Notes: a model not told the origin generated them from the letters alone. A DNA stretch of 55,307 nucleotides from a virus (IMGVR_UViG_3300033143_003628:1-55307), one strand, 5' to 3'. Counted from the stretch's first letter, positions 1 to 55,307 are shown. Made by a program: numbers and translations.

Positions 1-1
1 C

Positions 2-505
2 GAGCCCGGTAAAAGGTTTTGGGTCGAAGGTGATTTGTCACAAATGGTTCGGTTACTAATGACCAATACTAAATGGAATTCGTTGGTTTGTGAATGGCTT
101 GTGAAGTATTTGCAGAATCCAAATCTTTTCGATAGTAGGGGAACGGGATTGATAAGACGTATAGGTGGCGAGTTGCTTGTGAACGACCAGGCACTTTCGG
201 ACGGATGGGAATTATATTTGAAGACCAAACAGGAGTGCGAGACCGCGAAGATCGGTGCAGGTTTGCGAGCGATTTCCGGAAAAGATCGGAAGCAGTTGAG
301 ATTTAAGGGTCGCCGGATAAGATATAGGGTCATCGATGTGAACCATTTAATTGTGTGGGCAAATCAATATAACTTTTGTGACAAAGAAACTCTTTTGGCG
401 AGCGTGCGAAATGAAATACCGAAGGATAAAGATGTAATAGATTTCGAAGGTAAACGAGCGGATATTTTTAAAAAGGAAAAGGGAAAGAAAAAAGAAGGGA
501 ATTAA
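2..505 (+). CDS. 5'-truncated hypothetical protein
   Basis: The reading frame has no stop back to the window edge, so the gene probably begins before base 1. The first possible internal start is TTG at 35, with no good ribosome site. The visible part is basic, with a C-terminal Lys-rich tail (residues after about 140) and a central stretch rich in Arg and Lys (GKDRKQLRFKGRRIRYR) that could bind nucleic acid. I do not recognise a family. It leads the early + strand cluster and is followed after one base by the next small gene. The coding call rests on the long frame and the tight spacing to its neighbour. Confidence 0.6.
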   Translation, partial: EPGKRFWVEGDLSQMVRLLMTNTKWNSLVCEWLVKYLQNPNLFDSRGTGLIRRIGGELLVNDQALSDGWELYLKTKQECETAKIGAGLRAISGKDRKQLRFKGRRIRYRVIDVNHLIVWANQYNFCDKETLLASVRNEIPKDKDVIDFEGKRADIFKKEKGKKKEGN

Positions 506-506
506 A

Positions 507-656
507 ATGTCAGAAGTTTTAACATGTAAATGTGGTTGTCAAAGTTGGATAATTTCAAGCACTGTTGCTATGTGTTCAGAATGTAACCGTAGAGTTTTTT
601 TGCTAAACATTAGCCTTTTAAATGAAAAAATTGAAAAGGAAAGTGAACAAAAGTAA
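507..656 (+). CDS. Small zinc-ribbon-like protein (49 aa)
   Basis: The ATG at 507 follows an AAGAAGGGA ribosome site. The 49-residue product has a Cys cluster near the N-terminus (CKCGC at residues 7-11) and a second pair (CSEC at about 23-26), the spacing expected of a small zinc ribbon. The C-terminal half is a charged helix. No family is recognised. It sits one base after the preceding gene, which supports co-translation. Confidence 0.6.
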   Translation: MSEVLTCKCGCQSWIISSTVAMCSECNRRVFLLNISLLNEKIEKESEQK

Positions 657-675
657 ATGAAAGGAATTTTCAGCC

Positions 676-891
676 ATGTCAACATCGGAAAAAGAAAAAA
701 TCGAGTGGACCTGCATTGAACCATATGTTTGGTTACTGCTTGTAAACTGTTCGCCCAAAGCCCTTGTTATTAAAGAAGCGCCGGACGTTTATACCGGGTT
801 CATTTTTAACGGGTGGTGCTGGCTTATATTAGCGCGGAAGTTTGAAACCGAAAATTTTGCAAAAGAGCATTTAACAAAAATTTTCGAATAG
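676..891 (+). CDS. Hypothetical protein (71 aa)
   Basis: A GAAAGGA ribosome site lies upstream of the ATG. The same leader wording, GAAAGGAA followed by TTTCAGCCATG, recurs before the ribbon-helix-helix gene at 12722. The 71-residue product is rich in Trp and Cys and has hydrophobic stretches but no convincing membrane span. Function is unknown. Confidence 0.55.
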   Translation: MSTSEKEKIEWTCIEPYVWLLLVNCSPKALVIKEAPDVYTGFIFNGWCWLILARKFETENFAKEHLTKIFE

Positions 892-901
892 GGGAACTAA
901 A

Positions 902-1141
902 ATGATAAAGGAAACAGAACTTATCGATGCCGTAAAAAGTCCTTTGAAAAAGTTTGAAAAAATTCAGATGGATTTGGCGGCGGATATTTCGGCACTGGAA
1001 AACGAAGTGCCTGGTCTTTATCATGGCACTATCGCCGGTGAAATGCAGCTGTACGTTCTGAAAACTCTTTTTGAGTTGTCCGAAGGGATCGCGGAGTCCT
1101 TGGCGGAAATAAAGGAAGATATTGAAAGGGTACAAAAATGA
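902..1141 (+). CDS. Hypothetical helical protein (79 aa)
   Basis: The product is 79 residues, mostly predicted helix with heptad-like spacing of hydrophobic residues in the last 40 residues. The stop overlaps the next start (ATGA), which is typical of translational coupling. A GGGGAACTAAA leader lies before the ATG. I recognise no family and propose no function. Confidence 0.6.
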   Translation: MIKETELIDAVKSPLKKFEKIQMDLAADISALENEVPGLYHGTIAGEMQLYVLKTLFELSEGIAESLAEIKEDIERVQK

Positions 1142-1479
1142 CAACTTTAAAACAACAGGTAAGTCAGCTAAATATTAAATTGAAAGACCACGAAAGACTA
1201 GCCAAAGCGCTTACTTTAGAAATTGCACAGAAGAATAAAGCGATTTCCGAACTGCATGACGAATTGGTCGCCGCAGAAAAGCGGAACACATCTTTTAATT
1301 TTGCATTTCAAAAGCTGCAGAAACTCTATGAAGACCGGCAGGAATATAATAGTTATGAAGATGTTCGAGAACTAAAAGCCGAAATGGAAGGGCAGCGAAT
1401 TCAACATGGACAGGACACCGTAGATCTAAGAGACACAATTGTGAAACTTGCGACGAGATTGGAAGCACAAGATGGGTAA
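1138..1479 (+). CDS. Coiled-coil protein
   Basis: The 113-residue product is almost entirely a coiled coil with repeated Leu/Ile/Ala heptads and many Glu/Lys/Gln residues. It starts with ATG ACA overlapping the preceding TGA. The following gene starts inside its last codons. A structural or oligomerising role is plausible but not shown. Confidence 0.65.
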   Translation: MTTLKQQVSQLNIKLKDHERLAKALTLEIAQKNKAISELHDELVAAEKRNTSFNFAFQKLQKLYEDRQEYNSYEDVRELKAEMEGQRIQHGQDTVDLRDTIVKLATRLEAQDG

Positions 1480-2068
1480 GTGTGCTGACTGTGAATTTTT
1501 AAGGCGTATAGGCTTAAGGTATTGGCGCTGCATTAGATACAATAGTGTCGATGCTGCAGAATACCCATTTGAGTGGTTTGAAAATACTGGATGTGTCACG
1601 TATTTTGCCGCCAAATTAATGAAGATGGAAACCTACGAATTAATAGGGACCGAATGTTTTCAGCACCCAGGAAAAATTTTAAGGCATCATAAGGACGGCG
1701 CGGAATGTCCGCACTGTTTTTCGCTGTTCATTATTAATCAACTTGGAGATCTTATTGAACTTAAATATTCGCCTGAAATGATATACACCAAGCCGGTATT
1801 AGTTACAAAGAATTATTGTGTGAAAAAACCGAAGGGAAAGAAAATGCCAAAAACACAAGAGGTAGAACAAATAGCAGATGCAATTATCACGGTGAAATTT
1901 TTAGTGAAAAATGTTTTGCTTGAAGATTTAGATAATACATCGATAGCATTATCTAGTAAGGGTTTGAATGGATCTAGTCGAGCGGTTTCTATTTTACACC
2001 GGTCGGCAGAATACAAAGCAAAAGTCACCTCTGTTTATTTAGATGAAGATTTGCTGGACGCGAAATGA
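1472..2068 (+). CDS. Cys-rich two-part hypothetical protein
   Basis: I prefer the ATG at 1472, which overlaps the end of the previous gene, over an upstream ATG at 1448 that lies deep inside it. The protein starts with a zinc-finger-like CxxC (CADC at residues 4-7) and has a later CPHC pair near residue 78. The last 85 residues look like a separate helical domain. The stop overlaps the next start (ATGA). No family is recognised. Confidence 0.6.
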   Translation: MGKCADCEFLRRIGLRYWRCIRYNSVDAAEYPFEWFENTGCVTYFAAKLMKMETYELIGTECFQHPGKILRHHKDGAECPHCFSLFIINQLGDLIELKYSPEMIYTKPVLVTKNYCVKKPKGKKMPKTQEVEQIADAIITVKFLVKNVLLEDLDNTSIALSSKGLNGSSRAVSILHRSAEYKAKVTSVYLDEDLLDAK

Positions 2069-2268
2069 AAATTAAAAGCATTAAAAAAGGTGAGTACGGC
2101 ACCATGTCGAGCACCAAGGGAACGGGCTGCACTAATAGGAAAGCCGAAGCGGACGGCATCGCCGTCACATTAAATACCAAAGAAATTATCTGTGGTAGTG
2201 TTTTTATTTCCGCAGAACAGCTTGCCGATATGGGTTACTTTTATGCCGAAGAAAAGAAGGGGATTTGA
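2065..2268 (+). CDS. Hypothetical protein (67 aa)
   Basis: The start overlaps the preceding stop (ATGA). The 67-residue product is small and soluble with a Gly/Thr/Ser-rich N-terminal half. It lies directly upstream of the adenine methyltransferase and is probably co-translated with it. No recognisable family. Confidence 0.55.
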   Translation: MKIKSIKKGEYGTMSSTKGTGCTNRKAEADGIAVTLNTKEIICGSVFISAEQLADMGYFYAEEKKGI

Positions 2269-2270
2269 AA

Positions 2271-2696
2271 GTGAAAAATCGAAATCTAAAAAATAATGAC
2301 AACTGGGAAACTCCTTTAACATTGCTTAATGAATTAAATAATGAATTTGTTTTTGATTTCGATCCGTGCCCATTTAATCCTGATTTCGATGGGCTCACTT
2401 GTGACTGGGGCAAAAGAAATTTTATCAATCCGCCTTATACTCGAAAGTTGAAAGAGGCTTTCGTCAGGCGTGCGGCATGGTTTGCAAAAGGTGAAGGACG
2501 ACTTTGTGTTCTGCTTCTGCCGGTTAGCACTAGCACGGTTTTATTTCACGACGTTATCCTGCCGAACATTACCGAGCCCATTAGATTTTTGCGCGGGCGA
2601 GTAAAATTTGAGGGGATAAATACTTTTGGCAAACGGGTTACAAACAAATGTGACATGCATGATAGTATGATCGTCATCTTCGATGGAAGGATCTGA
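2271..2696 (+). CDS. dam: Phage DNA N-6-adenine methyltransferase (Dam/DNMT family)
   Basis: The protein matches the short phage N6-adenine methyltransferase family (Pfam Dam). Visible signatures are the N-terminal WETP at 12-15, the DPCP at 31-34 and the catalytic NPPY at 53-56, followed by the LLLP and FLRGRVKF segments usual in this family. It transfers a methyl group from S-adenosylmethionine to adenine in DNA, probably to protect the phage genome from host restriction or to mark it. I choose the GTG at 2271, eight bases after a GGGG-containing ribosome site, over a TTG at 2265 that overlaps the preceding stop. No endonuclease partner lies beside it, so it is an orphan enzyme. The target site cannot be read from sequence. 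Confidence 0.88.
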   Translation: MKNRNLKNNDNWETPLTLLNELNNEFVFDFDPCPFNPDFDGLTCDWGKRNFINPPYTRKLKEAFVRRAAWFAKGEGRLCVLLLPVSTSTVLFHDVILPNITEPIRFLRGRVKFEGINTFGKRVTNKCDMHDSMIVIFDGRI

Positions 2697-2697
2697 T

Positions 2698-3021
2698 ATG
2701 ACAAAAACTTGTAAAAGGTGTCATAGTGTCATGGTTTCAAGCCTACTTACCGATGGATTCTATTGTCCCGAATGTGTCAAGCCGAAACATCCTACGGAAA
2801 TCGAAATGACTTTAAGAAATGTGAACGAGCACACAATGAATTTGATTAAGCAGCGACTGCAAACAGAAGGGGCAGAACCTTTTATGATAACGTGGGGTGG
2901 ATACAATGTTCTGCGCGAACTCGTATCCGCCTACGGTGATTTTTCCAGGATCGAAGCCGAGTATAGCAGCGGCGATTTGGGATACAATATTACCTTTCGG
3001 CTAATAGTAAGGGGTAACTAA
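2698..3021 (+). CDS. Zinc-ribbon hypothetical protein
   Basis: The ATG at 2698 is placed correctly after AAGG; an upstream ATG at 2683 is inside the previous gene. The N-terminus carries a classic CxxC-x14-CxxC zinc ribbon (CKRC, then CPEC). The remaining 80 residues are a mixed alpha/beta domain of unknown role. It follows the methyltransferase directly. Confidence 0.6.
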   Translation: MTKTCKRCHSVMVSSLLTDGFYCPECVKPKHPTEIEMTLRNVNEHTMNLIKQRLQTEGAEPFMITWGGYNVLRELVSAYGDFSRIEAEYSSGDLGYNITFRLIVRGN

Positions 3022-3022
3022 A

Positions 3023-3235
3023 ATGACATTAAGTAAAGAACTAATAAAGGATGTCGACCGCGCCGGGTGTTCGGCATACCTTGAAACCGTTGATAGTACT
3101 GAACTTCCTGACGGCGCATGGTGGCAAGTATTGGAAGACGCAGTTACGCAGTACAACAAAGATTTCGAAGCAAATCTAGATCCAAATGACACGGTTCACT
3201 GGTATTTAAAAAATTTTAAGGGGGAACAAAAGTGA
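3023..3235 (+). CDS. Hypothetical acidic protein (70 aa)
   Basis: Starts ATG ACA right after the previous stop. The product is small and acidic with several Trp residues and no Cys pairs beyond one single Cys. The next gene starts with GTG overlapping its end. Unknown function. Confidence 0.55.
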   Translation: MTLSKELIKDVDRAGCSAYLETVDSTELPDGAWWQVLEDAVTQYNKDFEANLDPNDTVHWYLKNFKGEQK

Positions 3236-3705
3236 AAGAAATCAGAATAGAAATAATTGGCGATGACACAGATGAAATCAATAGCAATTTTAAATTGGCG
3301 ATGCAAGACCATCACGGCATATTATCGATAGACCTGGCCGAAAGAAATTTGGTTTATGATCATTACCTACTGTCCGAAATCAATTCCGCACCGGGTGAAT
3401 GCCGCGCAGTTTTTAAAGAGATGATAGAAATAATATCCGATACGGAAGTGATACCTGATTGTGATTCATGTCATCATAAGGACAAATGTGTCACGCATAG
3501 GCAAGTGCAGAAAGGTGTCATTACTTGGAGTGCACCTGCGACTTGTGACGAGTATATTAAGGAAGGTGACGAAACACCTTGTTACACTTGTGTTCACGAA
3601 GACACATGTGAAATTCCTAAAGTTATGAATTGTGGCTTTGTCACATGGGTTCCTGATTCTGTTTGTACAGAATATAGGCAAGACAAAAGGATGATTAGAA
3701 GATGA
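3232..3705 (+). CDS. Duplicated zinc-knuckle protein, paralogue of the next gene
   Basis: GTG start at 3232 after GGGGAACAAAA. The N-terminal 50 residues form a beta-rich unit (EIRIEIIGD, later GILSIDL) that resembles the N-terminus of the following protein. The C-terminal half has two copies of a Cys motif (CDSCHHKDKC and CYTCVHEDTC), each followed by a VITW/VTW strand, so this is an internal duplication of a zinc-binding knuckle. Role unknown; binding to nucleic acid or a host protein is an inference. Confidence 0.6.
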   Translation: MKEIRIEIIGDDTDEINSNFKLAMQDHHGILSIDLAERNLVYDHYLLSEINSAPGECRAVFKEMIEIISDTEVIPDCDSCHHKDKCVTHRQVQKGVITWSAPATCDEYIKEGDETPCYTCVHEDTCEIPKVMNCGFVTWVPDSVCTEYRQDKRMIRR

Positions 3706-4181
3706 AAGAGCCAATTAAAATAAGATTAGAGGTTACTGGTGATGTGAAAGCGGGTCGAGCACTAAATCAAGCGGCCGCGCAGTTTCATGAAGGTAAAGGA
3801 ACATTGTCTATTATGTTCGAAGGTCTACCGATATATTATAGCGAAGTGTTTTTAAAAGATGTGTACACTACTGCAGATCCTTTTTGTAGCGGACATTTCG
3901 TGGAAGTGGTAGAGGCGGTAGAAGTACTTAAGTGTCCGCATTGTAATGAAACACATCCAAATGATGCCGTGCCGGAATCCTGTGCTCGAAAAATAATAGG
4001 GGTGTTAGGTGCGGAAGTAATCAATTCGGGTGCGGAAAGTCACATCGAAGAAATAGAACAAAAGTGTCATTGTGTTTTGTGTCAAATAGAAACAAAGAAT
4101 TGGTTACAGATGTTTGGCAAAAAGATATGTCACAGATGTGCAACCGAATTATATGATGTAATAAAACTTGAAAGGATGTAA
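3702..4181 (+). CDS. Zinc-finger protein, paralogue of the preceding gene
   Basis: The start overlaps the previous stop (ATGA). The N-terminal beta unit (IKIRLEVTGD, GTLSIMF) matches that of the upstream gene. The C-terminal half carries CxxC pairs (CPHC, CHCVLC, CHRC) of a zinc-binding module different in detail from the neighbour. The pair probably arose by gene duplication and later change of the C-terminal domain. Function unknown. Confidence 0.6.
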   Translation: MKEPIKIRLEVTGDVKAGRALNQAAAQFHEGKGTLSIMFEGLPIYYSEVFLKDVYTTADPFCSGHFVEVVEAVEVLKCPHCNETHPNDAVPESCARKIIGVLGAEVINSGAESHIEEIEQKCHCVLCQIETKNWLQMFGKKICHRCATELYDVIKLERM

Positions 4182-4184
4182 AAA

Positions 4185-4454
4185 ATGACAATTGTACCAA
4201 GTAACCCAGGTAATTGTGACAGACCCATCGGCCCGGACTTTGATAATCGAGGTGGTGGCGCGAAGGAAATTGATTTCGAAAATTTGACTCGACTTCATAA
4301 GGCGCGGCTTCGACGAGATAGGATTCTGAGTGTCAAAGCCAAACTCGCCGGTACATTTGAGCCCGAGCCGGACGACTATGCTGACATGATGGCGGCGGAA
4401 GAGATGGAAGAGATGGAAGAGATAGAAGAGATGGAAGAAGCGGCGGCGGAATGA
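4185..4454 (+). CDS. Hypothetical protein with Glu-rich repeat tail
   Basis: 89 residues. The N-terminal 60 residues are mixed and basic in the middle; the last 25 residues are an acidic repeat of EEME/EEIE units encoded by a simple DNA repeat. The acidic tail could mimic nucleic acid or simply add charge. The next gene overlaps its stop (ATGA). Confidence 0.55.
   Translation: MTIVPSNPGNCDRPIGPDFDNRGGGAKEIDFENLTRLHKARLRRDRILSVKAKLAGTFEPEPDDYADMMAAEEMEEMEEIEEMEEAAAE
4399..4440 (+). repeat. Simple 9-base coding repeat
   Basis: Four to five copies of a GAGATGGAA-like 9-base unit encode the Glu-rich tail of the gene above. Such repeats can change length by slippage. Confidence 0.8.
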
Positions 4455-4654
4455 AAATAGAATTTGATAAATTGAAATGGATATGCAATCGCAGAACAGG
4501 TCGATTATGTTGTGATTTACCTTTGGATGGCAAAATTGGAAAAGAGCGAAATGCCTACTACGATTTTTGCGTAATAAATAATTGTCCCTTAGCAATTCGC
4601 AATGACACAAAAGATACCGAAATAGAATACGATAAAGAAGGGTTTGGTGGATAA
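4451..4654 (+). CDS. Hypothetical Cys-containing protein (67 aa)
   Basis: ATGA overlap with the preceding stop. Contains four Cys residues scattered (WIC, LCCD, FCV, NNC), which may bind a metal. Small and soluble. No known family. Confidence 0.5.
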   Translation: MKIEFDKLKWICNRRTGRLCCDLPLDGKIGKERNAYYDFCVINNCPLAIRNDTKDTEIEYDKEGFGG

Positions 4655-4656
4655 AA

Positions 4657-4902
4657 ATGAGACTTGCCAGGTTTGAATGGAAAGAGGGTTTGCAATTTAT
4701 GGAAATCGCGCTGCCACCGGATCGCTGTGTTCTGCTTTGCAAACATCCTGTCACGGAAAATGACAAGACCGAAGTCTGTTTATCTGTAAACGGACCGGCG
4801 CAAAATCCGCCAATACTTTTGCAGTGTAGTTTCGCCGACGCCGTGGCCGAAGTTAACTCGGCTTTAAATGGCGGCAAGCGAAAAGTGAAAGGGGCGAACT
4901 AG
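4657..4902 (+). CDS. Hypothetical protein (81 aa)
   Basis: 81-residue product with a beta-rich core and a basic C-terminal tail. It starts two bases after the previous stop, and its own last base pairs overlap the GTG start of the next gene. No recognisable motif. Confidence 0.55.
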   Translation: MRLARFEWKEGLQFMEIALPPDRCVLLCKHPVTENDKTEVCLSVNGPAQNPPILLQCSFADAVAEVNSALNGGKRKVKGAN

Positions 4903-5117
4903 TGTCAACTTTAAAAAATGTTCCGATAGAAGATTTGAAAGATCAATTGGAAGCGATAGGCGACGAAATCGCACGAAGACAAAGACCCAGACTTGTTTAT
5001 AATCATCTAAGTGATTTTAACGAGTTAATAGCTGTGTGCAAAGAATACATTAGTGCCATAGATGAAAAGAGCTGCGACAAAGACACATTGAGAATCTTAT
5101 TTTCGAAACCGCGATGA
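4902..5117 (+). CDS. Hypothetical helical protein (71 aa)
   Basis: GTG start overlapping the TAG of the preceding gene (TAGTG). Predicted helical with a short basic patch (RRQRPR). It lies just before the RecB-like nuclease. Function unknown. Confidence 0.55.
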   Translation: MSTLKNVPIEDLKDQLEAIGDEIARRQRPRLVYNHLSDFNELIAVCKEYISAIDEKSCDKDTLRILFSKPR

Positions 5118-5171
5118 AATCTGTTTATGGTTTTAAAGTTTTTGATTGGATAAACGAAAGATTGGATTGAA

Positions 5172-5939
5172 ATGAAAGTTTCCGCATCGCAAGTTTCAAA
5201 ATTACGAAGGTGCAAACGTGCCTTTGCATTTGAATATGTAGAAAACAAACGTCCACCGTCGAGCAAGGTCCAAGAGTTTGGCACAGCAGTTCACAAGCAA
5301 TTAGAAATGTGGCTGAGTGAAAGCAAGGTGCCGGATGGATCTGCCGCCGGTCTTGTGGCGAAATCTGGATTACAATGGCTACCTGTTCCGCATGAAAAAT
5401 TAGAAACCGAGCTTGAATTCGTTATGGACTGGGGACCAAATGTGCAAACGGGCGGGTTCATTGATGTAATCCAGCCGCCAGGTTTATTTGACACAGCTGA
5501 ACCTATGATCATCGACCATAAAACTACTAGCGATCTGAGGTGGGCGAAGTCGGAAGCCGATTTAGTTATCGACGAACAGGCGATCATTTATAGCGTTTGG
5601 GCGATGACACATTTTGACTCTGCAGAGGTAAGAGCGCGGTGGGTTTATTATGCCGCGACTAATCCCAAAAGCGGACGCCGCCGACCGAAGGGAACGCGAA
5701 TGGTCGAGGTATTGTTTAGTGCACGCGATCCTAAGTTCCTGGCGGAAGTTGAAAGACTTGATTTAGATGTGAAAGAATGTGTCAGGATTCGGACTTTAAA
5801 TCTAAGGGGTATGAGCTTCGAACCGAGCCCTGAGTCTTGTCGCTTATTCGGTGGTTGCTTTCATGTGAACAGATGTAACCTTTCGCCGCTGGATTCTTTG
5901 GGTGCGTACATTGAAAGGGATATAAGGAAAAACAAATGA
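5172..5939 (+). CDS. RecB/Cas4-like PD-(D/E)XK nuclease
   Basis: The 255-residue protein shows the ordered motifs of the RecB-type exonuclease family: FGTAVH (His41), GGFIDV (Asp98), IIDHKTT (Asp115 and Lys117) and QAIIY (Gln136, Tyr140). One Cys near the N-terminus (Cys14) and three near the C-terminus (Cys223, Cys229, Cys235) are arranged as in members that hold an iron-sulfur cluster (Cas4, AddB). Such enzymes digest or process single-strand ends. In a phage it probably serves recombination or replication, perhaps with the SSB-like protein and resolvase encoded further right. The start at 5172 is an ATG after GATTGAA; the ribosome site is weak. Its end overlaps the next gene (ATGA). Confidence 0.85.
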   Translation: MKVSASQVSKLRRCKRAFAFEYVENKRPPSSKVQEFGTAVHKQLEMWLSESKVPDGSAAGLVAKSGLQWLPVPHEKLETELEFVMDWGPNVQTGGFIDVIQPPGLFDTAEPMIIDHKTTSDLRWAKSEADLVIDEQAIIYSVWAMTHFDSAEVRARWVYYAATNPKSGRRRPKGTRMVEVLFSARDPKFLAEVERLDLDVKECVRIRTLNLRGMSFEPSPESCRLFGGCFHVNRCNLSPLDSLGAYIERDIRKNK

Positions 5940-6238
5940 GTGATCTAGCAAACACAATTAATGAAATGGAAAAAAACACTGACGAATTGTCTGAACATTT
6001 TAATGCTTTGAGTAATATAAATGATCAATTACGAATTGATTTGGAAAAAGTACAGAAGTGTAATTTAAAACATATTGAACAGGCCCAGGGATTAACGGCG
6101 GAACTCATAAAGGAAAAAGAAAAATCGATTCAATTGATAACTGAAAATAATATTTTGAAACAAAAAATTCAAATTGTTATCGAACATTTAAAGGCCAAAC
6201 ATTTTTATGTGGCCTTAGATATATTGGATCAAAAATGA
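5936..6238 (+). CDS. Coiled-coil protein (100 aa)
   Basis: Starts at an ATGA overlap with the nuclease gene. Nearly the whole chain is a Leu/Ile heptad coiled coil. It may oligomerise or partner the nuclease; this is inference from position only. Confidence 0.6.
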   Translation: MSDLANTINEMEKNTDELSEHFNALSNINDQLRIDLEKVQKCNLKHIEQAQGLTAELIKEKEKSIQLITENNILKQKIQIVIEHLKAKHFYVALDILDQK

Positions 6239-6435
6239 CAGACGAAAAAATTTTTCAATGGTATTGTGACAACTGTAAAGATAGAACAATAGGGATAGAT
6301 GTAGATAGGAATAAAAAAGTGCCTTACTGTATAGTATCTCGAACCCGTCCTAGCATAAAAATTTGTGAAGTGTGGGACGTTTCTAAAACTCATATCGCTA
6401 TTGCTTATGAAAAGTTTTTAAAGGATCAAAAATGA
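6235..6435 (+). CDS. Hypothetical protein with Cys pair (66 aa)
   Basis: ATGACA start overlapping the preceding stop. The N-terminus has a YCDNC pair and two more Cys residues occur later (PYC, KIC), compatible with one zinc site. Its end, GATCAAAAATGACA, is worded like the end of the preceding gene, so both junctions look duplicated. Confidence 0.55.
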   Translation: MTDEKIFQWYCDNCKDRTIGIDVDRNKKVPYCIVSRTRPSIKICEVWDVSKTHIAIAYEKFLKDQK

Positions 6436-6530
6436 CATTTGTAGAATTTTTAGAGCTTCATTGGATTGGTATATGTATTTTAATTGGATCTTTATTGGCT
6501 TTAAGATGGGTTTGTCATAGGGGAAATTGA
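6432..6530 (+). CDS. Single-span membrane micro-protein (32 aa)
   Basis: Too short for routine gene finding. The ATG ACA start overlaps the previous TGA, with AAGGATCAAAA upstream. The 32-residue product is dominated by one hydrophobic span of about 20 residues (from Trp11 to Trp26) followed by a basic tail. It is probably an inner-membrane peptide. Confidence 0.5.
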   Translation: MTFVEFLELHWIGICILIGSLLALRWVCHRGN

Positions 6531-6548
6531 ATTGAAAGAGGTGTGGAA

Positions 6549-6869
6549 GTGACAGACAATAAAAAGTTCAGTGTCCCTTTTAAAGAAGAAGATTTTCATG
6601 AAGAGAATGAAAAGTTTGAAGTACTAGAACGAATTAGTTATGAAGTTATGTTTGCACAATCGGATTTGAATTATGAAAAATTTTTTACTAGGAATTTAAA
6701 AACTGGCAGAGGCGATCCGTTTGAATTCGATGAAGTCTCTGAACAAGATAGACCTTTCATTAAAAAGGGTTCAAAGATGACACATGTTCATGGCCGCAGG
6801 ACTGGCGCTCGGCATGGCCGCACAAGTTTTTGGGTAGTAACTTGGTGGCCAGGGAAGGATCAAAAGTGA
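6549..6869 (+). CDS. Hypothetical protein (106 aa)
   Basis: The GTG at 6549 (GTG ACA) lies seven bases after AAAGAGG, a better start than a GTG at 6543. The product is acidic at the N-terminus and basic, His/Arg-rich near the C-terminus (HVHGRRTGARHGR). Role unknown. The next gene starts inside its last codons. Confidence 0.55.
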   Translation: MTDNKKFSVPFKEEDFHEENEKFEVLERISYEVMFAQSDLNYEKFFTRNLKTGRGDPFEFDEVSEQDRPFIKKGSKMTHVHGRRTGARHGRTSFWVVTWWPGKDQK

Positions 6870-7108
6870 TAAGTGATAGGGGTTTAAATTTTCTAAAAGA
6901 AAACAAAAAACTTTTCAAGGTGTTCGTACAGCTCGGCGATGTCGAAAGAAAAATTGTTTTGAATTTTGCGAAAAGGGTTCTAATGGGTCAAATCGAGTAC
7001 GGAAAATTTAAAGAAAAAAAATTAGACAAGCGGGATTTTTTAAAAGAGTTGCACTTTGAAATGCTAGATTCTTTTGTATATATGGAACGCGAGTTGCTAA
7101 AAAAATAA
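6866..7108 (+). CDS. Hypothetical helical protein (80 aa)
   Basis: GTG start at 6866 overlapping the preceding TGA and following AAGGAT; an in-frame ATG at 6830 lies inside the upstream gene. The product is helical and basic, ending in an ELHFEMLDSFVYMEREL segment typical of helical bundle proteins. It is the last gene before the first internal promoter. Confidence 0.55.
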   Translation: MISDRGLNFLKENKKLFKVFVQLGDVERKIVLNFAKRVLMGQIEYGKFKEKKLDKRDFLKELHFEMLDSFVYMERELLKK

Positions 7109-7112
7109 AGAC

Positions 7113-7140: not shown

Positions 7141-7169
7141 GCTAAATAAGGGAAAGTGAAGGTAAAAAA

Positions 7170-8342: not shown

Positions 8343-8344
8343 TA

Positions 8345-46567: not shown

Positions 46568-46583
46568 GTGACAAACGTGTCAC
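46568..46583. promoter_or_regulatory. Intergenic palindrome of the TGTGACA motif
   Basis: GTGACA-AACG-TGTCAC, a perfect inverted pair of the dispersed motif, lies in the 39-base gap before the cement gene. It is the only inverted pair I saw in a late intergenic gap. Confidence 0.5.
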
Positions 46584-46585
46584 TC

Positions 46586-47542: not shown

Positions 47543-49173
47543 GCTCTGGCCTCTTGCGGTCCGATGTCTACAAATGTGACTTCGGGCATCATAGCTCTAG
47601 TGATAGGAACTCGTGCTCCGAAACCACCAGGACTGAACGCATTCAATTCACCGCGTTCGTATGCAGCCCATTCAGCATCACCGAGCCGAACACCTACTAC
47701 CCAAGACCCGGAATGAATGATGTCATCTCCAAAGGGTCTGCGTGTGACAGTATGCGGCAAGTTCTGCAAAGCTTTATGGTAATCGTCAGATGTAGGATAC
47801 ATCTCTATAAAAGATTCGACCAGCTGCGCGTTCGCTTTGATCGCGTGCTGTACCCCTATCACTCTACTACTCTGAATGAATTCATGTGCGGTCTGTTCGA
47901 TTGTAGCAGGCGGAAGCCAATCATCATGTGCGTCAAACTCTGGGCCGTACTTGCCGTAAGGGTCCATCACCACACCATAGACGATCTGCTTTGAAAGCTC
48001 TGCTTTACAAATAGGAACTGAAAAATCACAATCGTTACCCTTTAACTTTTGTTTGCTTATAAAATCAGCAAATGAAATATCGCCGAACCCTTTGTCTTGG
48101 CTTTCTGACTTATGAATCAGCCAGGTTGAATCGCCATAGGTTGGCTTACTCATTAAGTATCTACCGGAAAAATGACTGCCGTCAAGTTTAATCTCAAAAG
48201 AATTATCTTTGGCTTTACCTATTTCATACGATCCGGCGTCACCGTGTACTACCACTTCGGTAGGTGCATCCATTACATTCAAAGACTTTCGCAAATCGTT
48301 CACGCCCAGCAATAACGTGTTGTTATCGAATACGAACGCACCCTTCTCAAGCCCTTCCCACCCGTACCAATCAGACACATTTTTAACCCTTTCCGCGATC
48401 TGTTTTATTTTTCTTAAAACTTCACCGGAATCCTTGTATTTCAGAATAGTAGCGGGATGTGGCAGAACGAAGTCTGCGCTTTTACCCAGGGACGTATGTG
48501 TCAAATGCCCTAATGCAATTACCGTCTGGGGGTTCAAACGTGACAACTCTGCTTTGACCCAGGGCACCCATTCATGTATATCTGTAGACTCGATTTCGTG
48601 AGTTAAATAATTGGGGCACAAATGTGTAATCATCACTTCAGTTCGACTCAACCCAAGCGGCTTCAAATACTTTTCACAGAATATGTCACCTGTGTTCCCC
48701 GATAACGCTTGACCATTACTGAAATCTAAACGACTTGGGTTCAGACCTATAAAAGCTACCGGTGCGTTCTGCGGTCCTGCTGTTGGAACCAGTTCAATGT
48801 TCTTAGATACAGCTTCTATTAATGAACTTTTTCCTAACGATATTTCTTTACGGTTCATTTCGTCTGCGACACAGAACGCAGCATTGATAATACCATCCGT
48901 TGGTTTCTTTTTCTTCTGTGCACCTACGAACCATTTATCCAGGCTCTGCCACATCTTCTGCAAAGATTTATCTGACACATTTGATAACACTTCTGGATTG
49001 AGCGCACTAAGAGCTATCTTTTCAAAGGCACTGGGCTTAGGGGCCTTATGTGACAACTTACCGCCCGCTCGACCGCGTGCTTCCGCCCGCATACCTGCAT
49101 AGACCCACCCTGGCAGATCGCGTTTTGCAATACTCCATATCTCAGTTAAAAACTCTTTAGTCAAATCTGACAT
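47539..49173 (-). CDS. Fusion: UDG-like domain plus XkdF-type prohead protease
   Basis: 544 residues in one frame. An N-terminal part (1-125) of unknown fold; a uracil-DNA-glycosylase-like domain (about 138-262) with family-4 spacing GLNPS...GQALSG..GD (143-162), MITHLCPN (181-188), VIALGHL (218-224) and LPHPA (237-241); a beta segment (about 305-356, FEIKLDGSHFSGRY and TWLIHKS) that recalls the LigD phosphoesterase domain; and a C-terminal XkdF/S78-type protease (about 396-520: VYGVVMDPYGKYG, VIGVQHAIK with His443, NAFSPGG with Ser514). The protease should mature the prohead; the DNA-repair-like parts are unexpected here. Overlaps the scaffold gene. Confidence 0.75.
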   Translation of the reverse strand: MSDLTKEFLTEIWSIAKRDLPGWVYAGMRAEARGRAGGKLSHKAPKPSAFEKIALSALNPEVLSNVSDKSLQKMWQSLDKWFVGAQKKKKPTDGIINAAFCVADEMNRKEISLGKSSLIEAVSKNIELVPTAGPQNAPVAFIGLNPSRLDFSNGQALSGNTGDIFCEKYLKPLGLSRTEVMITHLCPNYLTHEIESTDIHEWVPWVKAELSRLNPQTVIALGHLTHTSLGKSADFVLPHPATILKYKDSGEVLRKIKQIAERVKNVSDWYGWEGLEKGAFVFDNNTLLLGVNDLRKSLNVMDAPTEVVVHGDAGSYEIGKAKDNSFEIKLDGSHFSGRYLMSKPTYGDSTWLIHKSESQDKGFGDISFADFISKQKLKGNDCDFSVPICKAELSKQIVYGVVMDPYGKYGPEFDAHDDWLPPATIEQTAHEFIQSSRVIGVQHAIKANAQLVESFIEMYPTSDDYHKALQNLPHTVTRRPFGDDIIHSGSWVVGVRLGDAEWAAYERGELNAFSPGGFGARVPITRAMMPEVTFVDIGPQEARA

Positions 49174-50211
49174 TTAAGTTCCCTTCCTTCTTAAACCTTC
49201 AGTACATTCACAATGGGGATGTGCGACCGGCCCCTGAATTGGACCTTTGATCGATTCGTACTCGCCACCTAGTGGAGCCGTCTTGCCATCTAATGAAGCA
49301 CAGATGTAACAAGCATCCGGCGGTGCCATCCATACTCGTTCGACTTCCGGCAGTATCCCTGCGTCCTGTGCCGACTGCCAAGCCGCTTGTCTACCTGCCG
49401 CTTGTGCTGCAATCGTTTCCGTTCGAGCTATCCGTTCGGCCCGCTTATGTAACAATTGTTTTTTATAAACATCTGTTAGACTATTTGCTTTGTCTCCACT
49501 TAAACCCGAAGCCAGATGTAGCTGTCTTCTATTTTCTACCGCTGTATATTCACGCTCGGTTAATCCGATATTACCTTCTATCTCGGCATAAATATATTCA
49601 GCTCTGTCACCATCGTCAAACCCCTGGGATAAAGTATCTTGAACTACTTCTAATTGCGGCTTTGAAATACCTTCTACAATAAGCTGCAACGAACGATTCC
49701 GCATCCAGTCCATTGAATATGGATTAACCGGAACCATCTGAATTTTAAAATCTACTGCCGCTTTTAATACTTCAACCGGATTAGGTTCTTCGAAATCATC
49801 CAGCGTGAACTTCATATTCAAATCGAAATTCTCATTTAGCAACTCGGTCGCTTCGTCACCTGACTCTTGCAGAACCTTAGTATAAGTGTTCTCTAATGTG
49901 TCAATGAATCCCTGCCAAGCATCAGGTGGCATCGACTCGTGCTCAGTAAAGAAAGGCAGAACTTCCATCAATGTCGCGACCGAATTCGTTTCGTAAGCTA
50001 TCAAGAAATCTTTTTTAATGGCAGGGGTCAGAAGTTCGGCCATCGCTTTTAAAAATCCATTACGAAATCTATTCTCGTACTTAGTAGCGATGGCGTATGC
50101 GTCCCGGCCCTCTTTAGTATTAGGCAGTACGGTCTGCCATGCCGGACGCCTCTGCCTACGCGCCTTGAATGCCCTGATACTTTTGTACACCTGTATTAGC
50201 GGCATCCACAT
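49174..50211 (-). CDS. Mu F-like minor head protein
   Basis: 345 residues. AERIARTETIAAQAAGRQAA and the zinc-type end PPDACYICASLDG...HPHCEC (Cys301, Cys304, His331, Cys334) are the signature of the Mu gpF/SPP1 gp7 head morphogenesis family. It acts with the portal in early head assembly. Starts at either of two nearby ATGs (50211 or 50205). Confidence 0.88.
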   Translation of the reverse strand: MWMPLIQVYKSIRAFKARRQRRPAWQTVLPNTKEGRDAYAIATKYENRFRNGFLKAMAELLTPAIKKDFLIAYETNSVATLMEVLPFFTEHESMPPDAWQGFIDTLENTYTKVLQESGDEATELLNENFDLNMKFTLDDFEEPNPVEVLKAAVDFKIQMVPVNPYSMDWMRNRSLQLIVEGISKPQLEVVQDTLSQGFDDGDRAEYIYAEIEGNIGLTEREYTAVENRRQLHLASGLSGDKANSLTDVYKKQLLHKRAERIARTETIAAQAAGRQAAWQSAQDAGILPEVERVWMAPPDACYICASLDGKTAPLGGEYESIKGPIQGPVAHPHCECTEGLRRKGT

Positions 50212-51578
50212 ACTCTCTTATTGTGATATTTCAACCTGAGCCCACCTTTACTTTTAGCTACCTCTTCTTCGACTTCTTCGGCACCTACCTCTTCACCTTC
50301 CGCATCGGATTCTGCTGGCATGGGCAGCTTGGCTATCTCTAAGAACTTACGCTGCAGAGCTTCGTCACCTGCAGGTAACATTCCCGCACCGGCAAGCGAT
50401 GTCACATATGATCCCATCTCCGTTAGTGATATGGTTTCTAAATCACCGTGAACCAGCTCGGGCCATATGTCCTGCCGAATACCGTTCAACATCATCAGAT
50501 CATTAATTCCAAATCGATTAAATGTAGCAGCGATACTATCTAATATCGCACCGATGGCGATTGCAAAGAGGTTCGTTTGTGACGAAGCGAGAGCGAACGA
50601 TCCGACATTAGCCATGCCGAGCTGAATGAACTGTGCCAGGACAGATTGTAGAATATTTATTTTGTAAGAGAGCTTCACCGCAGTGGTATCTATCTGCCTG
50701 CGGCCACCTGAATGTAATAGCTCTAATTTGTATCCCGTTGGCTTGCCATTCGTATCTATCTCAGATGGAACCATTGCAAACTCACGCTGGTCGCGCTTCA
50801 ACTCACTAAGCATTGTTTCGAACGCAGCTCTGAGAGCTTTGGTTTTACCGGAAGCATCTGGATGTAGCAGAGCGATAGGGACCTGCATCGTTATCAATCC
50901 GGTCATGTCACGTTCGATCCCTATTGCTTCTATTTCACCTATGCGCTTTAGAAAGAAATAATCGACCACCGCATTTCTATATATACTGCGGCCCTCGGGA
51001 TTGTTCTTTGTTATCTTAGTTCTGAACAGAATCGATTTATCAATAGGTACTAACACAGCTTCACCATCTCCATGTGTCTGCTTCATACCTAGCAGCTCGT
51101 CATCCGTATCGAACTCCCACCGTTCGAGAGTGTCCTGTGCTCGCAGAGCTAGATTGCGCCAGCCGATTTTGCCATCTTCGAAACGACTATTAATCGTCTT
51201 GTCATCATTAGGTCCCTTACGCAGCTTGAATACCTTTTCGAAATACGACCAGCCATAGGGCAGGAATGAAAGCACTTCGGACATGAAGTCTTCGAAGGTA
51301 ACATCCATGTCAATCAAACATGATTCAACGAACTCTGCCTGCTCTAACGCTTCGGAAGTGGCGTCTGCGGGCTCGACCCGCCACTCAACCTGGCGCACTA
51401 GTGCTTCTATAACAAACGCAATCGAACCGATGACAGAGCTATTGTCCGACATCTCACGATAGAGCTTGGGACCGAACTCGCCTTTAAGCTTAGGGTGAAA
51501 CTCTTCGTTAATAACTCCCGCATCTTTCTTTAGACCTGAACTACCTATTACCGAAGTGTCCAGTTTTGCTTCTGGCAT
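50196..51578 (-). CDS. Portal protein (DUF935-like)
   Basis: 460 residues. SIAFVIEALVRQVEWRVEPA, FLPYGWSYFEKVFKL and GRSIYRNAVVDYFFLKRIGE are typical of Mu-like portals. It forms the dodecameric ring for DNA passage. Strong AAAGGAG site. The C-terminus is acidic then basic with Cys residues. Confidence 0.85.
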   Translation of the reverse strand: MPEAKLDTSVIGSSGLKKDAGVINEEFHPKLKGEFGPKLYREMSDNSSVIGSIAFVIEALVRQVEWRVEPADATSEALEQAEFVESCLIDMDVTFEDFMSEVLSFLPYGWSYFEKVFKLRKGPNDDKTINSRFEDGKIGWRNLALRAQDTLERWEFDTDDELLGMKQTHGDGEAVLVPIDKSILFRTKITKNNPEGRSIYRNAVVDYFFLKRIGEIEAIGIERDMTGLITMQVPIALLHPDASGKTKALRAAFETMLSELKRDQREFAMVPSEIDTNGKPTGYKLELLHSGGRRQIDTTAVKLSYKINILQSVLAQFIQLGMANVGSFALASSQTNLFAIAIGAILDSIAATFNRFGINDLMMLNGIRQDIWPELVHGDLETISLTEMGSYVTSLAGAGMLPAGDEALQRKFLEIAKLPMPAESDAEGEEVGAEEVEEEVAKSKGGLRLKYHNKRVCGCR

Positions 51579-51608
51579 ATCTGTACTCCTTTTATTTCTT
51601 GCATCTCT

Positions 51609-53015
51609 TTACGCGTTTGCATTAAAATCCCAGGGGCTCGAACGTGTGCCCGCTTTTGATAATGAAAAATCAAAGTTATAAATGTTCCCCGACATATGAT
51701 CGAGCGCTTGTGTCATCGTATCCACTGCGTCATCTCTTGAAGTATTGGGAAAGGCTGTGACATTATCGATGAAAGGTTCTGACCATGATGCGAGCTGTTC
51801 GGTCGGTACAAACACATTGCCCGCCTCTATCAGTCCTGACACAGATGCTAACCTTGCTTCTTTACTTCCTTTAGGTTGATAGGGGACGAGCCCCGGTACT
51901 GTGTCACAGAGTGTATCGATGACCGCTCGGCCATTCGCCTTGTCTTCTATTACCTTAGTAATTGCCTTGGGCCATTTGTGACTGAACACTTCTATTTTCT
52001 TTAGAGTCTCAGGGAAGTTTAAATTTTCTTCAATCTTATCTACAATGTACATATTAGATCCAATACGGCCCCAGACTTGACCACATACCAAACTATTCCC
52101 CGTCTTGCCAAAAGTCAAATCCCAACTCTGAATCATCTCTTCGAACTGTTCCGGCATAGTGTCGAAACGTTTGAACCAATCACGCTTGACCATATTACCT
52201 TCCAGCGGTGCCGGACGCTGTTGATAAAGACCTGCGAACATGTGTGAGCCCAACGTCTTTTTTATTTGAAGGAGAGCATCTGTGTCAAACCGCTCGGCAC
52301 ACAGCGCCGCACCCTCGGTCCTGCCTAACAAATCATTTGGCTCTGCAAGCGCAGGTAGTGAAATGACTTCCCAATCGTCCCCATGTTCAGCCATCAGCCA
52401 GCCCGATATATCCATTTCATGCCAGCGAGTCTGATCTATGATAACCGATCCACCTGGTTCCAAGCGCGTAAAAAAAGTTCCCTTGAACCAATCGATTGTG
52501 CTCTCTCTTGTAGTGGGTGACATCGCTTCGGCCCAGTCCTTATGTGGGTCGTCCAGAATTAACAACTGTCCCCCTAGACTAGTGAGTGACCCACCGACCC
52601 CTGCCGACCTCATACCGCCGCCCTCGTGAGTCTGCCAGTTCGACACCGACGACTTGTCACGCCTGACCCTTGTCCACGTCTCAGGGTTAAGCATAAACTC
52701 GTCACGCACCGCCAGACCCCACTTGGCAGCTACTTTATCGGAGTAGCTAGATAAGATCACATTATCCCAGGGACGCCAGTCTAAGTACCAGGCAGGGAGC
52801 CAGTGAGCTATTCCCTGCGACTTGCCGTGTCGCGGCGGAGCGTTCACGATGATACGAGCGTTCCCCTTTACTATTTTATTTTGGATGTACATGAGCACAA
52901 ACGAAAGCCAGGTGTATGGAATCCAGCCGCCCTTGCTCAAATGGTTAGCATACGTGGGTACTGTCATTCGCCACGTAGAATCACCAAGTGTACTACGAGA
53001 CTGAGCTGCCCTCAT
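51609..53015 (-). CDS. Terminase large subunit
   Basis: 468 residues. Walker A PPRHGKS (60-66), Walker B LLILDD (151-156), and a C-terminal nuclease domain beginning at SWDLTFG (Asp299). It cuts concatemeric DNA and pumps it into the prohead. Start overlaps the small subunit gene. Confidence 0.92.
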   Translation of the reverse strand: MRAAQSRSTLGDSTWRMTVPTYANHLSKGGWIPYTWLSFVLMYIQNKIVKGNARIIVNAPPRHGKSQGIAHWLPAWYLDWRPWDNVILSSYSDKVAAKWGLAVRDEFMLNPETWTRVRRDKSSVSNWQTHEGGGMRSAGVGGSLTSLGGQLLILDDPHKDWAEAMSPTTRESTIDWFKGTFFTRLEPGGSVIIDQTRWHEMDISGWLMAEHGDDWEVISLPALAEPNDLLGRTEGAALCAERFDTDALLQIKKTLGSHMFAGLYQQRPAPLEGNMVKRDWFKRFDTMPEQFEEMIQSWDLTFGKTGNSLVCGQVWGRIGSNMYIVDKIEENLNFPETLKKIEVFSHKWPKAITKVIEDKANGRAVIDTLCDTVPGLVPYQPKGSKEARLASVSGLIEAGNVFVPTEQLASWSEPFIDNVTAFPNTSRDDAVDTMTQALDHMSGNIYNFDFSLSKAGTRSSPWDFNANA

Positions 53016-53628
53016 TTGGATTCATTTTCCCTAAGAGTAAATTGACCGCATCCATCGCTTCGTCATCTTCGAGCAGCGGTGCAAGCGCTTCGCGCTGATC
53101 GGCCGCTGTGATCTGATGTCTTTCTTCTATAACTGTTTCAGGTTCGCCGCGACTCATACGTTCGAGCTTCATACCGGTCTCTATAAGTTTGCGAACATCT
53201 TTAGGTGCAATAGGTGTGCCCTCTTCCGACGCCTTTTTTAATCTGGTTAACCAACGTGTCAAAGCTCCCGCACCAAGAGCTTGCATCGACTTCGCAAGGT
53301 TCATATGCCGATCTCGCATACGTGACACACCTTCGAGCATCTTGCGGCGGCGTTGTTTATCGAGTGCGCGATCCCAGTCTGCGACACGTTCTGCCCAGTT
53401 CCAACGAACCGACCACTTCTCGTATTTGCGTGCAACTGTGTCAAGCTTTGCAAGCGAGCCGTCTCTTTTCCGTTCGAAATCAGCGGACTTGCGAAGCGTT
53501 CGGTCATATCCCATGTCACGATAAACTACAAAGGCTATCCATGACTTAAGGGGTTCACCAGGTTGCCGATCATATGTTTCACGGTCGGTTGCGCAAGTGA
53601 AAGGTAATATTCTTTTATCTGACATCAT
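52993..53628 (-). CDS. Terminase small subunit-like
   Basis: 211 residues, helical and basic. Directly upstream of and overlapping the large subunit gene. The WNWAERVADWDRALDKQRRR segment is typical of small terminases that recognise DNA for packaging. Two ATGs at the start; ribosome site weak. Confidence 0.75.
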   Translation of the reverse strand: MMSDKRILPFTCATDRETYDRQPGEPLKSWIAFVVYRDMGYDRTLRKSADFERKRDGSLAKLDTVARKYEKWSVRWNWAERVADWDRALDKQRRRKMLEGVSRMRDRHMNLAKSMQALGAGALTRWLTRLKKASEEGTPIAPKDVRKLIETGMKLERMSRGEPETVIEERHQITAADQREALAPLLEDDEAMDAVNLLLGKMNPNEGSSVS

Positions 53629-53646
53629 CTTAAATGTAACATTTGT

Positions 53647-54579
53647 TTACTTTCCCTGCAACAATCCAACAATATGTTCAGCAATCGCTTTCATAAAGTT
53701 TGGCGGAACACTGTTTCCCATTCGTGCGATCACTTGTTTATATGTACCTATAAATTGATAATCATCTGGATACGAAAACACTCTTTTAGTTTCATTTACA
53801 GACAAGCGCCTCGGTTCGTCAGGATGAAAATGACCAGAAGCAATGGTCTTTAAAACTGTTGGTGGTATCCTATACCAACTACAACGATAAAAACCAAAAT
53901 GTTCATAATGAGCTTGTCCTAACTTAGTTTCAAAATAATGCTCTTCATCAACTGTGCTTAATGGTTTACAATCACCTAACTCTTTCAAATCCTTTAACGC
54001 CTCTTTCAACAGAATCGGTTTTGTCTGTGGCTTTGGATGTGAAGGTTTAATTTCTAAATCCTTACGAATACCAATAAAAATCAATCGTGGCCGTGACTGC
54101 GGAACATTGTAATATTTCGTATTCAATATTCTTGCACTGACTTCATATCCACAAGCCTTCAATTCTTTTAAGCACTGAACGAAAATGATTTTCATTTTAC
54201 CTTTGACCATACCAGAAACATTCTCCATCACAAATGCTTTTGGCTGTAATCCCTGCAGAAGCCGAACATATTCCTTAAACAATTGATTTCTATTATCTGT
54301 AAAATCTCTTTTCCCAGAAATTGAAAATCCCTGACACGGCGGCGAACCGTCCAGAATATCTAATTCACCCGGTTGCAATCCGATTGTCTCTAAAACATTC
54401 GAAACAGACAGATCATTAATATCACCATGGTAAACATTTGTGTCAGGATGATTGAGCTTATACACTTCAACAGCATTGTCGTCCCACTCACAAACCAACA
54501 AAATTCTGCCACCAGCAAGCTTGTAACCCAAAGACGATCCGCCACATCCACTAAAGGTACTGACAACTGTGAAATTCAT
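53647..54579 (-). CDS. dcm: DNA cytosine-5 methyltransferase
   Basis: 310 residues. All main C5-methylase motifs are visible: FSGCGGSSLG (motif I, 9-18), SPPCQGFS with catalytic Cys82, MENV (118-121), QSRPR (161-165) and GNSVPP near the C-terminus. Likely protects phage DNA or overrides host restriction. Overlaps the ParB-like gene (ATGA). No endonuclease partner seen. Confidence 0.92.
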   Translation of the reverse strand: MNFTVVSTFSGCGGSSLGYKLAGGRILLVCEWDDNAVEVYKLNHPDTNVYHGDINDLSVSNVLETIGLQPGELDILDGSPPCQGFSISGKRDFTDNRNQLFKEYVRLLQGLQPKAFVMENVSGMVKGKMKIIFVQCLKELKACGYEVSARILNTKYYNVPQSRPRLIFIGIRKDLEIKPSHPKPQTKPILLKEALKDLKELGDCKPLSTVDEEHYFETKLGQAHYEHFGFYRCSWYRIPPTVLKTIASGHFHPDEPRRLSVNETKRVFSYPDDYQFIGTYKQVIARMGNSVPPNFMKAIAEHIVGLLQGK

Positions 54580-55106
54580 TTGGGAAACTCGAATTCACAT
54601 TTGGGACACTTGCACATCTCAATATCGTCTGCAATCGATTCGTCATACTCCCTGCCAACATCGTCAGGAACATTTGTGTGCTCAATAATCTTTTTCAATT
54701 CGGTTTCGCTAAATCCCATTGCTTCAATAGATTCCAAATCAGAATTATTAACAAGTTGCTCAATTGCTTCTGCCAAAACCGTTTCGTCCCATTCAGCAAG
54801 TTCAGCGGATTTGTTATCAGCGATTGCATAAGACATTGCTTCCGTCGCATCTAAATCTTTTCTGCGAACTGCCACCAAAGTATTTGCATCGGTGTCAACA
54901 ATTTTGACATCTTTGAACCCGGCTTTTTTAGCGGCCTCCAGTGTTCCGTTTCCAGCTCGCACGACTCCATCCTTATCCACGAAAAGTGACCGGGCCGCGC
55001 CGAACTGCTTTAGCGATTTTTCTATTGCTTTGATGTTCTCAGCCGAGTGCTTCCTGGCATTATTTGGATCGGCAATTAATTCGTCTATTGAGATTGTTTT
55101 TGACAC
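54576..55106 (-). CDS. ParB/sulfiredoxin-domain protein with zinc knuckle
   Basis: 176 residues, GTG start with GGAAGGAG upstream. ParB-like nuclease/CTPase domain: DPNNARKHS (13-21), VRAGNGTLEAA (49-59). The C-terminus carries CKCPKC (Cys165, 167, 170). In phages these proteins often precede a DNA methylase or terminase and may direct DNA modification or packaging rather than partition. First gene of the late operon, next to arrays of a repeated DNA motif. Confidence 0.8.
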   Translation of the reverse strand: MSKTISIDELIADPNNARKHSAENIKAIEKSLKQFGAARSLFVDKDGVVRAGNGTLEAAKKAGFKDVKIVDTDANTLVAVRRKDLDATEAMSYAIADNKSAELAEWDETVLAEAIEQLVNNSDLESIEAMGFSETELKKIIEHTNVPDDVGREYDESIADDIEMCKCPKCEFEFPK

Positions 55107-55129
55107 GCTTGAACTCCTTCCTAATTATC

Positions 55130-55158
55130 AAAATAGTCCTTTGTCACTAATGTGTCAA
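55130..55158 (-). promoter_or_regulatory. Promoter of the late (right-to-left) operon
   Basis: On the - strand: TTGACA (55158-55153), 17-base spacer, TATTTT (55135-55130). The wording TTGACACATTAGTGACA contains GTGACA next to the core. Drives the ParB-like gene and perhaps the whole late region. Confidence 0.75.
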
Positions 55159-55166
55159 GTTATACG

Positions 55167-55300
55167 GGTGTCACAGGTAGAGGTGTGACGATGAAAGGTT
55201 AATAATAATAGGTGTTTATATACAAGTGTCACACTGTCACACCTTCAATATTAAAAAGTACTAGAGTATAAGTAAAAACAGGGTGTCACAGTGTCACACC
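55167..55300. promoter_or_regulatory. Array of GTGTCACA operator-like sites
   Basis: An 18-base unit GTGTCACA(C/G)TGTCACACC occurs at 55226-55243 and 55283-55300, differing in one base and spaced 57 bases apart. A third GTGTCACA at 55168-55175 pairs with TGTGAC at 55184-55189 as an inverted repeat. A weak + strand promoter (TTCAAT at 55244, TATAAG at 55267) sits between the two 18-base units. Together this looks like a control region. Confidence 0.65.
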
Positions 55301-55307
55301 CCCGACA

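Follow-up and report, generated by a model that had tools for sequence, protein, structure and literature searches.

A network of about a hundred dispersed TGTGACA-type sites in the genes of a contractile-tailed phage, and a related array beside its primase gene

This study concerns the heptamer TGTGACA (TGTCACA on the opposite strand) in the window, by which we mean the whole 55,307-nt stretch IMGVR_UViG_3300033143_003628:1-55307, read as one strand, 5' to 3'. The window belongs to a contractile-tailed double-stranded DNA phage, as its terminase, portal, capsid, sheath, tape measure and baseplate genes show, and it carries replication genes for a family A DNA polymerase, a helicase and an exonuclease. 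A forward and a reverse gene arm diverge from the right/left end of the window. Another contig, L001, is identical to the window over 6682 bp and runs 1643 bp beyond the right end, where it reaches the N-terminal part of the primase gene. This part (L001:3-1166, minus strand) and window positions 2-505 both match one intact gene of the relative G019, which carries DUF5906. Since both window ends match this single gene, the phage map is probably circular or circularly permuted, cut within the primase gene, where a stretch of sequence is missing. Between the primase gene and the gene of a ParB-like protein lies a divergent control region with 10 copies of TGTGACA within 600 bp, some of them paired at 8 or 9 bp in symmetric GGTGTSACACC contexts.

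A preliminary description of the window, made by eye, had estimated about 63 copies of the heptamer against about 7 by chance. The count is exactly 63 against 7.2 expected from base composition, and no other 7-mer in the window scores higher. As a null model, synonymous codons were shuffled within each of 82 open reading frames (ORFs), which leaves the proteins and the codon usage of each gene unchanged. Under this model 12.5±3.3 copies are expected within ORFs and 55 are observed (z 12.9), and TGTGACA stays the top 7-mer, the outcome that the preliminary description had named as support. Reproduction of the count by such shuffling had been named there as a refutation, and the finding withstands it. 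The excess persists when the shuffling also keeps codon-junction dinucleotides (63 versus 26.2, z 11.4) or is restricted to 20-codon blocks (63 versus 37.5, z 8.4). For CANNTGTGNCA the numbers within ORFs are 55 and, in codon-shuffled sequences, 5.4±2.1. A maximal-order Markov correction, which predicts 54.8 copies of TGTGACA, is uninformative because the constituent 6-mers carry the same signal. With the tail-fibre blocks removed, 44 copies remain against 18.1 expected. The earlier remark that the copies often encode Val-Thr or Cys-Asp holds for Val-Thr in 33 of 40 copies in reverse-strand genes and for Cys-Asp in 7 of 15 in forward genes. The excess of TGTGACA is not a by-product of protein sequence or codon usage. 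Some further words also lie above codon expectation, namely GC[AC]GAAC (83 versus 35), TTCCGGCA (18 versus 2.9), CGCCGCC and CCGAGCG.

The heptamer, which the preliminary description took as the motif, is indeed the core, but the close variants TGTGTCA (44 copies) and TGTGGCA (24 copies), both clearly over-represented, and a 12-base upstream extension had been missed; TGTGAGA is absent from the window. The full site is asymmetric and 19 bases long, A-nn-GGKW-n-CA-nn-TGTG(A/T/G)CA. Aligned copies show C at -4 (40/62), A at -6 (33/62) and G at -9 to -7 in the upstream flank, and expectation-maximisation converges on 107-109 sites with the consensus A-nn-RRKW-n-CA-nn-TGTG(A/T/G)CA. A 35-bp version of this procedure with codon-shuffled thresholds was dropped, as it overfits and returns only 5-33 sites for any word. 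The site consists of a strong unit, TGTG(A/T/G)CA, and a weaker related unit, GGKWnCA, 9 bp upstream. Among about 70 offsets tested, -9 is the best for the upstream 'CA' (z 7.2), and it equals the period of the array described below. Both T at -9 and G at -6 (3 of 58 dispersed copies) are disfavoured, and the upstream unit is therefore not simply a second TGTGACA.

The position weight matrix (PWM) of the site was trained on the same genome and was hence cross-validated between the two arms. The PWM from the left arm, with its forward genes, detects 82 right-arm sites at score >10 against 15.5±3.5 in codon-shuffled right arms, and that from the right arm detects 34 left-arm sites against 10.7±2.0 in shuffled left arms. 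When flank scores at TGTGNCA are compared with shuffled flanks across arms, the p values are 2.6e-13 and 2.4e-4. Among 80 enriched words in seven phages ranked by cross-validated flank information, TGTG(A/T/G)CA is the clear leader (p 6e-7), followed by CGTACAG of the phage G017 (p 5e-5). The flank bases, including C at -4, recur in right antisense frame 2, right sense frame 2 and left antisense, and are weaker at left sense sites. Because the cross-arm prediction works, and does so in more than one reading frame and in either orientation, we conclude that the dispersed site is selected as DNA. Genome-wide, the PWM finds 186, 139, 99 and 67 sites at scores >9, 11, 13 and 15, against 49, 24.7, 10.1±2.8 and 4.8 in codon-shuffled genomes, and roughly 90-120 dispersed sites are real.

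As had been described, the copies lie mostly in genes and in both orientations: 164 of 186 sites (about 88%) are inside genes, at a coding fraction of 0.94, and their spacing is random-like (coefficient of variation 1.13). The gaps reported at about 17.9-23.7 and 51.9-55.1 kb are also real, with no TGTGACA at 17899-23751 or at 51902-55169, and in the region of 33-38 kb described as dense 10 copies fall within 33.0-35.6 kb. In four segments TGTGDCA is in excess (39 versus 17.8, 47 versus 8.9, 24 versus 8.0 and 15 versus 7.7); 16.9-23.75 kb is the sole segment at background, with 5 copies against 5.5±1.5 expected. In this block codon usage is near normal (correlation 0.90-0.93) and GC skew is near 0, compared with about +0.2 otherwise. 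The drop in skew, within about 16-24 kb, coincides with the site-poor block and points to a possible recent exchange of a module. Sites are oriented 96 antisense to 90 sense at score >9 and 67 to 32 at score >13. For CANNTGTGNCA the ratio is 37 to 16 (p 0.005), and the two arms agree in direction.

Two relatives, G015 and G019, are syntenic with the phage across the whole genome, with 51/49% identity in TerL, 57/59% in the portal protein and 59/53% in the helicase. Their control regions hold variant words, TGTTACG/CGTAACA in G015 and TGTGACG in G019, and each variant is almost confined to its control region (5 of 6 copies in G015, 4 of 5 in G019); neither genome has a dispersed excess of any variant tested. 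Searches with TerL, major capsid protein, DNA polymerase, helicase, sheath, portal, baseplate and LexA-like proteins recovered only L001 (the same virus), L002, L047 and relatives at the level of the major capsid protein, and none of the relatives so found has dispersed TGTGACA. Since the relatives keep a variant array without dispersed copies, dispersal appears to be lineage-specific. The array looks old and drifting and the dispersed class looks new in the lineage of the window, judging from these comparisons. Genes without a homologue found in G015 or G019 include those of the LexA-domain protein and of a 70-aa protein. Amino-acid identity at the sites is 0.425 versus 0.475 elsewhere (p 0.07), and Thr and Val at the sites are not significantly less conserved than elsewhere. 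In the capsid-level relative G017 (L065-L067), 32 CGTACAG and 40 CGTAACG are dispersed, and CGTACAG is the one word besides that of the window whose cross-validated flank is suggestive.

The preliminary description treated all copies as one motif class and thereby merged the dispersed class with the control-region array, to which the right-end copies at 55169-55292 belong. The flanks of the two classes differ: C at -4 is found in 1 of 10 array copies versus 40 of 58 dispersed copies, and C at +7 in 8 of 10 versus 10 of 58. The array, with its 10 TGTGACA beside the primase gene, is a putative iteron-like origin or control element. Scanning viral contigs for GGTGTGACAN{1,2}TGTGACACC turned up 14 further ones, the majority of which have a local array at 9-bp spacing, and in genome contigs the pattern gave 19 matches, about the chance number. 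Among the arrays examined for their surroundings, the neighbours are mostly primases or helicases of several kinds: VapE/DUF5906 in L051 and L055, AAA_25 with or without Prim-Pol in L050, L053 and L060, and DUF927-Cch in L052. In L048, by contrast, integrase and RNA polymerase genes take this place. In the Microbacterium phages Hyperion/Squash and their relatives the array lies within the primase gene, and in the Yersinia plasmid pYe4449-2 it adjoins a VapE gene. The other array-bearing phages that were checked as whole genomes have no dispersed copies beyond chance. Arrays of TGTGACA with a 9-bp period (L048-L061, L080, L083) are thus shared by phages that are not related to one another and by a VapE plasmid. 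Their place is often the 3' end of a primase or helicase gene, and the array is possibly a widespread origin iteron.

Table 1. Positions of the sites and neighbouring genes in the window.
Feature	Position	Strand	Remarks
Dispersed site class, ~100 sites	1..55106	both strands, mostly in genes	PWM score >13 versus codon shuffles
Best-scoring dispersed site	35254..35272	+	PWM 28.1; core TGTGACA at 35266
High-scoring dispersed site in portal gene	50400..50418	-	PWM 24.9; core 50400-50406
High-scoring dispersed site	26665..26683	-	PWM 24.8; core 26665-26671
Block at background for the dispersed site	16900..23750		DNA polymerase, RuvC-like resolvase, small helix-turn-helix (19405-19617), transglycosylase genes
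Left part of control-region array	55107..55307		paired TGTSACA 55227/55235, 55284/55292; single 55169; continues at least 478 bases into L001
Primase-helicase gene, C-terminal part	2..505	+	N-terminal part past right end (L001:3-1166, minus); DUF5906 in G019 counterpart
ParB-N-like protein	54576..55106	-	PHROG 620 and methyltransferase PHROG 498; Pfam ParB_N below cut-off; no helix-turn-helix; adjoins C5 methyltransferase
C5 cytosine DNA methyltransferase	53647..54579	-	PF00145 E 3e-69
LexA-type winged-helix domain protein	12948..13490	+	PF01726 E 2.8e-5, above cut-off
70-aa protein, ribbon-helix-helix-like by eye	12722..12934	+	no Pfam match; weak PHROG match to transcriptional regulator

Several other genes deserve mention. 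Dam-type and C5 methyltransferases and a weak match to the restriction-alleviation protein Lar are encoded at 2265-2696, 53647-54579 and 7170-8342, and this gene content suggests strong restriction pressure on the phage. At 47539-49173 a single ORF encodes a phage head protease domain (PF14550) joined to a domain of the uracil-DNA-glycosylase superfamily (PF03167). At 23045-24285 a forward lytic transglycosylase gene converges with a conserved reverse gene, with an overlap of about 150 bp; the latter has a weak DUF4347 match and is 54% identical in G015. Rfam and tRNA scans of the window were empty.

What do the dispersed sites do? We consider the chances about even that these roughly 100 sites are recognised by a sequence-specific, most likely phage-encoded DNA-binding protein. 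What the sequence shows is the sites and their pattern, and binding is inferred. In the mechanism that we propose, a phage protein with the core recognition of the array would bind early and late genes at intervals of a few hundred bases. There it would hold transcription back until its displacement, acting by roadblock or bridging like the L5 repressor at its stoperators. The DNA polymerase block would be kept free of sites for expression, or would have been acquired too recently to gain them. Two observations, the weak antisense bias and the lack of sites in the polymerase block, lead us to favour transcriptional restraint, with low confidence; restraint of replication or compaction of DNA may be alternatives for the bound protein. 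The LexA-type winged-helix protein is a candidate binder of the dispersed class, and the C-terminal part of the primase-helicase, as modelled, a candidate binder of the array. For the 70-aa protein the model is of low confidence, lacks the ribbon and gives no usable fold; neither the model nor Pfam confirms a ribbon-helix-helix.

Some of our results weigh against this interpretation. The binder of the dispersed sites is known as candidates only, and a host factor may take that place. The flank differences between array and dispersed sites make two proteins possible, and a third upstream unit, which a longer array should have, does not reach significance. The orientation bias is weak, and codon-shuffled genomes are also antisense-biased in the right arm. 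In addition, no integrase was found and no repressor recognised in the phage, which leaves a role in lysogenic silencing unsupported.

In mycobacteriophage L5, over twenty 13-mers are reported as targets of the repressor, which binds as a monomer and has two DNA-binding domains (PMC9283540). Like the stoperators of L5 and cluster A phages, the sites are asymmetric, numerous and dispersed through the phage genome (99 versus 10 in shuffled genomes), and the suggestion of an L5-like dispersed binding site, made in the preliminary description, is still the best reading of the dispersed copies, which may work somewhat like stoperators. However, there are about 100 sites versus 20-30, they lie in coding sequence versus short intergenic spaces, their sequence is different, their orientation is about 70:30 against transcription and thus follows it weakly, and no two-domain repressor was recognised in this phage. 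The name stoperator is therefore not applicable as a matter of membership, as the sites lie mostly in genes and an orientation rule is unproven. In the F plasmid, exact TGTGACA is found in all four asymmetric ori2 iterons, in the inverted repE operator pair and downstream of repE, so that one core serves asymmetric iterons as well as a symmetric operator (for RepE biology see PMC13028717). Unlike in the phage site, the other half-site of F lies downstream (TTGCCCT), not upstream, and the F copies are local, not dispersed. The phage has no Rep_3 initiator (PF01051 is absent), and the comparison with F is thus an analogy only. The 9-bp arrays of L048-L061, Hyperion/Squash and pYe4449-2 resemble the control-region array in sequence, period and neighbourhood. 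The KorB operators of IncP plasmids are likewise several sites spread over a replicon, each an odd palindrome with an S centre, but there are about 12 of them, with another sequence, and they are bound by a true ParB homologue with a helix-turn-helix.

It is unlikely, in our view, that a DUF5906-type primase-helicase initiator has the dispersed sites as additional targets, which would act by titration, handcuffing or secondary loading like the incC iterons of F. The core TGTGACA and the 9-bp spacing are common to the dispersed sites and the array beside the primase gene, the arrays of other phages and of a VapE plasmid adjoin helicase genes of the VapE/DUF5906, AAA_25 or DUF927 kinds, and the primase C-terminus gives a winged-helix-like model, although of low confidence (predicted local distance difference test, pLDDT, 62; best Foldseek E 0.06). 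However, dispersed sites are missing from relatives that have both a homologous primase and a control array, and array and dispersed flanks differ.

It seems rather improbable to us that the phage has adapted to its host and that the sites are bound by a host protein of the nucleoid, of replication or of recombination. Enrichment of Chi-like host words in genomes is a known phenomenon. Against this, the lack of excess at 16.9-23.75 kb, where codon usage is near normal, is unexpected unless the block was recently acquired, and a 19-bp degenerate asymmetric site is unlike the short Chi words; the Chi-like reading was set aside for its long degenerate flank. Quite improbable, too, is a codon-pair, mutational or repeat-protein bias that makes words without binding. 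GC[AC]GAAC and TTCCGGCA also exceed codon expectation and tail-fibre repeats hold some copies of TGTGACA, but GC[AC]GAAC and TCCGGCA had no cross-validated flank when tested, whereas TGTG(A/T/G)CA has one, and its signal appears in several frames and both orientations, persists outside the fibre blocks and is absent in relatives. Very improbable, finally, is the array for the ParB-like protein that was once proposed, whether as a centromere, for packaging or for segregation of the genome: although the gene of this protein adjoins the control array, its product has only a sub-threshold ParB_N match, no detectable helix-turn-helix and methyltransferase-associated PHROGs, the ParA profile PF13614 is absent from the phage genome and found in 14 of 14 control genomes, and G019 keeps the ParB-like gene yet has no dispersed sites.

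To return to a phage-encoded binding protein, we speculate, as an unlikely extension, that this lineage has turned an origin-iteron core into about 100 coding-embedded sites, so that one protein would couple origin control to genome-wide occupancy, as a kind of sequence-specific chromatin; its syntenic relatives show no such step. If a protein does bind the sites, the phage would allow us to test directly in what way an operator or iteron word that is local at first comes to be dispersed. The combination of a synonymous-codon null with cross-validated flanks would then be a recipe for finding similar hidden codes, and the TGTGACA array beside unrelated primase-helicases would provide a search handle for phage origins. 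To our knowledge the sites would, if bound, be among the densest networks of sequence-specific sites known from any phage, set in early and late coding sequence and in both orientations, and they would show how, within a single lineage, a phage can write a DNA code across all of its genome.

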